Shown: positions 22,374 through 28,060 of the stretch, one piece after another
How positions within the stretch are numbered: position 1 is the first letter of the stretch
How the letters are laid out: every line of letters begins with the position of its first letter
Assembly: GCA_947630025.1 (NCBI GenBank)
Contig: CANRFZ010000011.1
Location: forward strand, 1 to 64,000
Origin: an uncultured Lachnospiraceae bacterium
GTDB lineage: Bacteria; Bacillota; Clostridia; Lachnospirales; Lachnospiraceae
Direction: 5' to 3'
DNA: 64,000 nt
Position numbers and translations under genes: made by a program
Notes under the pieces: model-generated
What the model saw: only the letters and a program-made list of their open reading frames with translations
Databases searched by the model: none
Told to the model about the DNA's origin: nothing

Positions 22374-22715
22374 TCAATCATTTTGTTGTATCCAGCGCTG
22401 CAGAATAAACTCCCAGTTCATCCCATCCTGCATCACGCGCAGAATCGTAACCTTTTTCTTCTGTTCATCTATGACATAAAACAATAGATATGTATCAGCC
22501 GGTTTCAAGTAGATTTCATATCCACGATAAACAAATCCGGCTTTCCCATGGCCTTGCGGGAATGTATCCAGCCCCAGAGCTGCCTTCTTTATCTTTCTTG
22601 AAAAATTTTCTCCTAACTCACGATATTTAAAATGATCCAAAATATATTTCTTGATATCTTTTACATCCTGTTTTCCACTCTCAGCAATCTCTACATGGTA
22701 CTGGCCATTTTTCAT
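22374..22715 (-). CDS. RelE/ParE-family toxin
   Basis: 'YHVEIAESGKQDVKDIKKYILDHF...KPADTYLLFYVIDEQKKKVTILRVMQDGMNW' ParE-like; preceded by a small antitoxin-like ORF. Confidence 0.75.
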   Translation of the reverse strand: MKNGQYHVEIAESGKQDVKDIKKYILDHFKYRELGENFSRKIKKAALGLDTFPQGHGKAGFVYRGYEIYLKPADTYLLFYVIDEQKKKVTILRVMQDGMNWEFILQRWIQQND

Positions 22716-22723
22716 ATGCACCT

Positions 22724-22891
22724 CTAAATTTTGTCTATTTCCTCCCACGCTTTTTCAATCGTCTGTGTTCTGCCCTGTTCCATATCATCAATTGCTTTAT
22801 CCAGTTTGGAAAAAAGAACCTTCATGGCATCGTCCACCGTCTGCATATTGCTCTGTCTGTTTACTGCATGAACAGTCTGCACTGTCTCCAT
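22724..22891 (-). CDS. Putative antitoxin of ParE/RelE-type module
   Basis: Small ORF (METVQTVHAVNRQSNMQTVDDAMKVLFSKLDKAIDDMEQGRTQTIEKAWEEIDKI) 8 nt upstream of the toxin. Confidence 0.65.
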   Translation of the reverse strand: METVQTVHAVNRQSNMQTVDDAMKVLFSKLDKAIDDMEQGRTQTIEKAWEEIDKI

Positions 22892-23148
22892 AAACTTCAC
22901 CCTTTCCAAATTTTTTATTATGAAGAAAGTATAACACACTTTTCAGGATTTCACTATGAATTTTTGTAATAGCCCGTTATCCACTCGTCGAACGGCGGGA
23001 ACGGCAAAGGGTGCGCCAGACGGCGAAATTCCCTGTAACGGTATTTCAGGCAAGAAGTGTTTTTGCAATCATATGTATAAAATCTCCGAAACCGGACATA
23101 ATGATACTAGTCAAAAGATAAGGAAATACTTATCCTCCCCTAACAGAG

Positions 23149-26650: not shown

Positions 26651-26680
26651 TTGACAAGTATTGCGCTTGTGCTTTATAGT
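26651..26680 (+). promoter_or_regulatory. Promoter (TTGACA-18-TATAGT) of candidate type I toxin transcript
   Basis: TTGACA 26651-26656; TATAGT 26675-26680; GGGTGTTG leader starts at 26689. Confidence 0.55.
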
Positions 26681-26768
26681 ATAATCATGGGTGTTGTCCT
26701 AAAGCGGTAAGCGGTTCGCCTTTCGCCGGAACGAGTACGTTCTGAGACTTCCATCGCAAGAAGGGAGG

Positions 26769-26939
26769 ATGAAAGAATGGAAAATTCAAGAGAAAGGTCA
26801 GTATTTGGTGCTGGAAACGGTAATCGGTATCATCGGTATCGCCGTGACAGTGGTGAGTATCATTGTCACGGTTATCGGTATCCGGGATAACCGAAAGATA
26901 CATAAACATCAAAAAAGCAACCGCCCGTCACAAGGTTAA
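26769..26939 (+). CDS. Candidate small hydrophobic peptide (type I toxin/holin-like), 56 aa
   Basis: MKEWKIQEKGQYLVLETVIGIIGIAVTVVSIIVTVIGIRDNRKIHKHQKSNRPSQG: one TM plus basic tail. Below the ORF-track length cutoff; start codon uncertain. Confidence 0.5.
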   Translation: MKEWKIQEKGQYLVLETVIGIIGIAVTVVSIIVTVIGIRDNRKIHKHQKSNRPSQG

Positions 26940-26951
26940 GGTTGCTTTTTT
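26911..26951. terminator. Bidirectional terminator shared by convergent transcripts
   Basis: AAAAAAGCAACC (26911-26922) / GGTTGCTTTTTT (26940-26951), 12-bp stem with A/T tails on both sides. Confidence 0.8.
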
Positions 26952-27007
26952 GTAACCAATAACTAAGGCGAACCGCTTGCGTTACGGTCAACACCCTTTA
27001 TGGTTTT

Positions 27008-27035
27008 ATTATAGCAGGCAAAGGACAAAAGTCAA
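27008..27035 (-). promoter_or_regulatory. Convergent minus-strand promoter (candidate antisense RNA)
   Basis: Minus strand TTGACT (27035-27030), 16 nt, TATAAT (27013-27008). Confidence 0.55.
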
Positions 27036-27081: not shown

Positions 27082-27108
27082 TTGAAGTCGCAATCTGCGA
27101 CATCAAGA
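27082..27108. promoter_or_regulatory. Upstream copy of 27-bp near-perfect palindrome
   Basis: CTTGAAGTCGCA-ATC-TGCGACATCAAG, arms 11/12 matched. Confidence 0.75.
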
Positions 27109-27133: not shown

Positions 27134-28060
27134 ATGGCAGAAGAAATAAAAGAGGTTACAGTGCCGGCAGAAACGGTGAAAATACAGAATCTGATATATG
27201 TGATCAGAGGAAAACAGATTATGATAGATAGTGATCTCGCTATCCTCTATCAGGTGGAAACAAGGAGATTGAATGAGGCTGTAAAAAGAAACCGTTCCCG
27301 TTTTCCGGAGAGGTTCTGTTTCCAGCTTACAAAAGAGGAATATGAAAACTTGCAGTCGCAATCTGCGACATCAAGTTTGAATGAAAATACTCATGGCGGC
27401 AGAAGAAAGTTGCCTTTTGCGTTTACGGAACAAGGAATCGCGATGCTTTCTTCTGTATTGCGGAGTGAAGTTGCTATCCAGACGAGCATACGGATCATGG
27501 ATACCTTCGTTGAAATGCGAAAATATATGTCAAACGCTTCTTTATTGTACGAGAAGATGAATGCAATAGAAATACGCCAGATCGCCATGGAGGAAAAGAC
27601 GGAACGGCGGTTTGAACAGGTTTTTGACTATATTGAATCCCATAAACAAGATAACCAGAAAATCTTTTTCGATGGACAAATTTTTGATGCTTTCAGCCTT
27701 ATGACAAACTTGATCAGGCAGGCAGAAAATCATATTGTTCTGATAGACGGATATGTGGATGTATCTACTCTGAATATTCTGGCTAAAAGAAATCCGCAAT
27801 TCGCTATCTGTATTTATACACTTCCGAGTGCAAGGATAACTTCACAGGACATTCTAAATTTTAATGCCCAGTATCCTAGTCTAAAAGTAAAACGTACCAC
27901 TGCTTTCCATGACCGCTTTTTGATTTTAGATCATACGCAGGGATATCACATCGGCGCATCCATAAAAGATGCCGGGAAAAAGTGTTTTGGAATCAACAGG
28001 ATTGAGGATATGGGCGTAATCAATGACCTGATTCAGCGTGCTGAGATTACAAGCAGTTAG
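27134..28060 (+). CDS. ORF6N-domain DNA-binding protein with PLD-like C-terminal region
   Basis: 'IRGKQIMIDSDLAILYQVETRRLNEAVKRNRSRFPERFCFQLTKEEY...FAFTEQGIAMLSSVL' ORF6N; C-terminus 'FHDRFLILD'. Confidence 0.9.
   Translation: MAEEIKEVTVPAETVKIQNLIYVIRGKQIMIDSDLAILYQVETRRLNEAVKRNRSRFPERFCFQLTKEEYENLQSQSATSSLNENTHGGRRKLPFAFTEQGIAMLSSVLRSEVAIQTSIRIMDTFVEMRKYMSNASLLYEKMNAIEIRQIAMEEKTERRFEQVFDYIESHKQDNQKIFFDGQIFDAFSLMTNLIRQAENHIVLIDGYVDVSTLNILAKRNPQFAICIYTLPSARITSQDILNFNAQYPSLKVKRTTAFHDRFLILDHTQGYHIGASIKDAGKKCFGINRIEDMGVINDLIQRAEITSS

Follow-up and report, generated by a model that had tools for sequence, protein, structure and literature searches.

The locus at 26651-27035 of the window, by which we mean the whole stretch of 64,000 nucleotides that was analysed, is probably a chromosomal type I-like toxin-antitoxin module, which would belong to an undescribed family with a logic near that of par/Fst. 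The module spans about 400 bases and recurs along the chromosomes of gut Lachnospiraceae; it is predicted to pair the gene of a very small membrane protein with a gene for an antisense RNA on the opposite strand. An earlier note on this DNA had put the locus forward as a candidate type I system; this proposal is supported by a conserved transmembrane (TM) protein, selection, convergent promoters, a shared terminator, multi-copy chromosomal spread and one-sided decay.

Layout of the module

The features of the module, in window coordinates, are as follows (SD, Shine-Dalgarno sequence).

26651-26680, + strand: predicted toxin promoter, TTGACA-18-TATAGT; hexamers match at 11 of 12 positions; position conserved among homologues
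26689-26699, + strand: 5' arm of the toxin leader, GGGTGTTGTCC; co-evolves with its counterpart in the antitoxin leader
26709-26722, + strand: toxin leader 3' arm, AAGCGGTTCGCCTT; conserved in 103 loci, mostly fixed by the search pattern
26718-26726, + strand: GCCTTTCGC, in the consensus fold the predicted partner of GAGAAAGGT (26790-26798) in the region of the toxin SD
26727-26744, + strand: 5'UTR hairpin CGGAACG-AGTA-CGTTCTG, supported by covariation
26763-26768, + strand: strong SD GGGAGG, serving the leader ORF; GGAGG conserved in 103 loci
26777-26890, + strand: leader ORF beginning ATGGAAAAT, 37 codons in the window; overlaps the toxin start, out of the toxin frame; ATGGAAAAT near-invariant in 103 loci
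26792-26798, + strand: toxin SD GAAAGGT, within the leader ORF; AAaGGt conserved
26805-26939, + strand: toxin ORF, 44 aa from TTG (MVLETVIGIIGIAVTVVSIIVTVIGIRDNRKIHKHQKSNRPSQG), placed by homologue start positions
26909-27001, - strand: predicted antitoxin RNA of about 92 nt, a 5' hairpin followed by the terminator (consensus fold of 101 sequences and single fold)
26910-26952, both strands: shared bidirectional terminator, formed by a perfect inverted repeat of 13 bp (26910-26922/26940-26952) and flanked by A and T tails; conserved in full loci
26965-26978, - strand: antitoxin leader 3' arm, AAGCGGTTCGCCTT; inverted repeat with 26709-26722
26986-26996, - strand: antitoxin leader 5' arm, GGGTGTTGACC; pairs with the antitoxin 3' arm
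27008-27035, - strand: predicted antitoxin promoter, TTGACT-16-TATAAT; hexamers match at 11 of 12 positions; TTGAC conserved at 0.85-0.99 in 103 loci

Both promoters were exactly as described in the earlier note, and across the loci both exceeded the shuffled control (mean matches 9.1 and 9.8 of 12 vs 7.35). The antitoxin promoter was the closer to consensus in 45 loci and the toxin promoter in 12. The toxin RNA would start near 26687, and the ends of the antitoxin RNA are those suggested by the positions of its promoter and terminator. The predicted antitoxin RNA and toxin mRNA overlap in antisense over about 44 nt, at their 3' ends only. The shared terminator with its A and T tails, which had been given as a 12-bp stem, is real and has a perfect repeat of 13 bp; the C-terminus and the stop codon of the toxin are encoded within it.

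The probable toxin ORF and an overlapping leader ORF

Type I toxins are recognised as small peptides (<60 aa) with a single TM helix and a charged C-terminus. The protein of the module has these traits, which are conserved in its homologues: its 44 aa comprise one TM helix and a basic tail, with a peak hydropathy of 2.9 and a pI of 11. Purifying selection was seen only in the toxin frame, where the median dN/dS was 0.36 (1434 pairs); for the two remaining frames it was 1.06 and 1.07.

The ORF had earlier been read as 56 aa (26769-26939). The TM helix and the basic tail of this reading stand, but its start was misplaced. The ATG at 26769 directly abuts the SD at 26763-26768 and is CTG in the closest paralogues (contig 3). 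In homologues the toxin mostly starts 28-33 nt downstream of the near-invariant ATGGAAAAT, a spacing that places the start in the window at TTG 26805. The toxin proper is thus probably the 44-aa product from this TTG, with an SD of its own.

The spacing of the SD at 26763-26768 fits ATG 26777, the start of a leader ORF (26777-26890) that overlaps the toxin and had been missed. In many loci the leader ORF has 14 codons, and its TGA overlaps an ATG in the toxin frame. It is usually out of frame with the toxin, but the frame differs between loci (50/27/16) and in 16 of them the two ORFs are fused in frame, so that any coupling between them would not be uniform.

Predicted RNA folds and probable masking of the toxin Shine-Dalgarno sequence

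The consensus fold of 88 toxin leaders masks the toxin SD in a helix of GCCUUUYGC and GUGAAAGGU that encloses a hairpin with an AGUA loop. A covariation check of the leader in relatives had been suggested beforehand. In 33 diverse leaders the 5'UTR hairpin indeed covaries, with 99.1% of cells paired and three pairs changed on both sides, and the SD-masking helix is paired in 87.9% of cells with one fully compensated pair only; the slid controls for the leader helices gave 29-55%. The 5' hairpin of the antitoxin RNA is formed by its two shared arms and is paired in 96.8% of cells with no two-sided changes.

Two matched leaders

The near-identical leaders that had been noticed on the two predicted transcripts were confirmed. 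AAGCGGTTCGCCTT forms a perfect 14/14 inverted repeat between 26709-26722 and 26965-26978, each copy is preceded on its own strand by GGGTGTTG(T/A)CC, and the 5' arms are GGGTGTTGTCC and GGGTGTTGACC. A natural variant of the leader arm has GCGCTCC for GTGTTACC. In the genome of the window the leader 12-mer occurs at seven module loci, and solo leaders were not found there: the three further matches are coincidences inside coding sequence. The layout is conserved in 103 loci and the arm is confined to the seven toxin-antitoxin loci, apart from these coincidences, which makes the twin leader more than a product of chance. The earlier note had held that repeats scattered through the genome independently of the ORF would speak against a module; the leader is instead confined to module loci, and the ORF is conserved and under selection.

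The same conclusion follows from the co-evolution of the two 5' arms. Within loci the arms are alike, with a mean edit distance of 1.13 (distinct pairs) against 2.45 after shuffling, where the minimum was 1.97. On a tree built from the rest of the sequence, with branch lengths ignored, changes in the toxin arm and the antitoxin arm fell on the same branch 10 times vs 1.9 expected, and seven of the 10 led to the same state. By these comparisons the two leaders are evolutionarily linked within loci. The remark that leaders which are identical, not complementary, are unusual also holds. The 9-10 nt between the arms stay toxin-type or antitoxin-type, and these middle segments differ consistently.

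Two other explanations concern the twin leader only. In the first, which we regard as unlikely, each promoter has the leader as a DNA operator, through which one transcription factor coordinates the transcription of toxin and antitoxin. In favour of this, the near-identical sequence lies immediately downstream of both promoters, the leaders co-evolve within a locus and AAGCGGTTCGCCTT is partly palindromic; yet the middle segments are consistently different, each leader has a separate conserved RNA fold, and no linked regulator gene was seen. In the second, somewhat doubtful but deserving more weight, the identity is a functionless by-product of gene conversion between the inverted copies. The arms do match within a locus, and at one locus (L108, 2456 and 2901) tandem copies have identical cores and diverged promoters, which suggests gene conversion limited to the transcribed part. 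The tracts would nevertheless have to be very short, since only the arms match and the nucleotides between them stay type-specific. Direct pairing of leader with leader as the antitoxin contact was considered and rejected: cognate pairs had no advantage and the co-folds kept mostly their intramolecular hairpins, so the identical leaders are not obvious RNA-RNA contact sites.

Distribution and dispersal

The genome of the window (2.64 Mb, 82% complete) carries seven full copies, the highest number in any genome searched, and three of them lie within 4.5 kb on one contig. Matches to the protein were found in 17 of 61 relatives, all of the same genus, and in the wider samples of the family (17/397), the order (16/392) and the phylum (2/399). 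A cultured strain, Lachnospiraceae bacterium GAM79 (L193), has one such match. A leader-pattern search of genome contigs gave 115 stretches, nearly all assigned by title to Lachnospiraceae or its genera, and one viral contig (IMG/VR). The full layout was present in 103 of 116 extracted sequences, almost all from Lachnospiraceae; the other 13 comprise four apparent chance matches in unrelated phyla, L017, which is complete with base changes, L049, which carries an insertion, and seven more. The conservation of the 3'-arm columns is partly due to selection of the loci, because the search pattern and filter fixed part of each 3' arm; promoters, hairpin, SD, leader ORF, toxin and terminator lie outside this selection.

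The copies occupy chromosomal intergenic sites beside housekeeping genes. Near-identical cores are set in unrelated flanks, and homology typically ends on each side about 70-85 nt past the leader arms, just beyond the -35 boxes. By these edges the unit is dispersed together with its promoters. A plasmid- or phage-borne origin was not supported: tblastn gave no matches in the plasmid and phage collections, and the leader pattern gave the one IMG/VR contig, on which a copy (L184, 2573-3001) lies between apparent head-tail genes.

The copies are discrete, about 400 bp long and scattered, their homology breaks off sharply, and one lies within a phage head-tail gene cluster. This could recall a miniature transposable element whose terminal inverted repeats are the leaders and for which the ORF is incidental cargo. 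We consider this highly improbable. The leader repeats are internal, with homology running past the arms to take in both promoters; neither terminal repeats nor target-site duplications were seen by eye at the unit edges; and the ORF is under purifying selection.

Several neighbouring elements were recorded. On one contig (L185, 4150-8800, contig C3), three copies and a decayed remnant, which has an antitoxin-type promoter and terminator and lacks a leader, surround an IS605 OrfB/TnpB gene. In Hungatella effluvii (L194, about 1237-1600) a palindromic insertion of about 150-190 bp separates leader and toxin. In the window, an ORF6N-domain phage-type regulator gene (27134-28060, + strand) adjoins the module, and a sequence of about 21 bp, GTCGCAATCTGCGACATCAAG, occurs once upstream of this gene (near 27090) and once inside it (near 27356). 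A ParE-family type II toxin (PF05016, E 3.5e-8) is encoded at 22374-22939 on the - strand, and the overlapping 71-aa ORF preceding it is probably its antitoxin.

One-sided decay

Decay was scored in 50 loci detected by the protein alone and away from contig edges. Both halves were present in 41, including L017 and L196, whose antitoxin leaders proved on inspection to be base variants. In the other nine the toxin leader region was lost or separated by an insertion, and one of these (L031) also lacked the antisense promoter region. Thus the toxin promoter or leader alone was lost or separated in eight loci and the antitoxin alone in none (two-sided sign probability 0.008, the loci being not fully independent). 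This asymmetry is what a toxin and its antitoxin would give; by genomic inference, the toxin is not maintained without its antitoxin. Among leader-model matches that had no protein match, two (L224 and L226) have the toxin ORF deleted and both leaders kept, and one (L225) has lost toxin and antitoxin.

The protein might instead be harmless, a regulator or stress peptide whose expression is adjusted by an antisense RNA, an explanation to which we give a low probability. It would suit the intergenic chromosomal positions beside housekeeping genes and a protein of predicted toxicity that matches no known family. The 8 vs 0 decay, the tandem multi-copy arrays and the masked SDs are, on the contrary, traits of type I toxins.

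Comparison with known systems

No Rfam family matched the module (best E 0.52), no family in Pfam, NCBIfam, PHROGs or PADLOC reached threshold, and no description of the module family was found in titles and abstracts of the open-licence literature. In Bacillus subtilis the antitoxin RNAs of txpA/RatA and bsrG/SR4 are convergent with their toxin mRNAs and overlap them at the 3' end. The predicted RNAs of the module would share this arrangement, and searches of Pfam, NCBIfam and Rfam gave no sequence relation to these two systems. In hok/mok/sok, Sok pairs in the leader; in the module the two predicted RNAs overlap at the 3' terminator instead, and no sequence relation was found. The module resembles hok/mok/sok in the predicted masking of its toxin SD and in its overlapping upstream ORF, which in that system (mok) is coupled to toxin translation (cited in PMC11228461).

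A close likeness is to par/Fst (pAD1 RNA I-RNA II; Fst/Ldr), which has convergent promoters, a shared bidirectional terminator and a small hydrophobic peptide with a charged tail, and in which 5' structures mask the SD and the 5' end (PMC7472228). Unlike par, where direct DNA repeats (DRa/DRb) give complementary RNAs at the toxin start, the module has inverted repeats that give identical leaders, and it has a leader ORF. Homology to Fst/Ldr was not detected: no Fst match was found in Pfam or NCBIfam, and the PXXXG(C) motif was absent from the inspected alignment.

In Clostridioides difficile, the pairs CD2517.1-RCd8, CD2907.1-RCd9 and CD0956.2-RCd10 likewise consist of a toxin RNA and a convergent, 3'-overlapping antisense RNA; their toxins, also from a member of the Clostridia, have 50-53 aa and a TM segment (PMC6563280). 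One of 16 module members matched NCBIfam CD_typeI_toxin, below threshold only (E 0.034), and the word 'inverted' is absent from the text of that review. Homology searches with known type I toxins reportedly yield little in most Clostridia (PMC6563280).

Proposed mechanism and implications

The layout, its conservation, the coding selection, the covarying hairpin, the one-sided decay and the leader co-evolution are computational findings; transcription, toxicity, the kissing contact, translational coupling and what the matched leaders do are inferred. In the mechanism that we propose, the + strand would give an mRNA of about 265 nt encoding the toxin, a 44-aa single-TM basic peptide, and the - strand an antitoxin RNA of about 92 nt. 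The full-length toxin mRNA would probably be translationally quiet, with its leader (GCCUUUCGC) pairing with the toxin SD; CUUCC/UUCC could in addition cover the SD or the start that lies upstream. Toxin translation would probably be opened by ribosomes on the overlapping leader ORF, which crosses the SD-masking strand. Given about 44 bp of perfect complementarity at the 3' end of the toxin mRNA, covering the terminator and the last codons, first contact between the RNAs would be a kissing interaction of their complementary terminator loops, and a duplex would follow. Through the matched leaders, both RNAs may carry one and the same element for stabilisation or binding, or like hairpins may exchange strands.

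We propose, tentatively and with less than even confidence, that the module requires the same 5' element, in matched copies, on its toxin mRNA and its antitoxin RNA. Both RNAs might, for instance, be bound by a single factor for stability or processing, or the antitoxin copy might take the 5' arm of the toxin leader and push the toxin GCCUUU strand onto the SD. If true, control would here depend on likeness of sequence and not on complementarity.

The module family, which has no match in the libraries searched, is dispersed in Lachnospiraceae, a major family of the gut. It offers test cases for the question of what maintains numerous paralogous type I loci on a chromosome, and for whether an identical, not complementary, leader can link a toxin and its antisense RNA.
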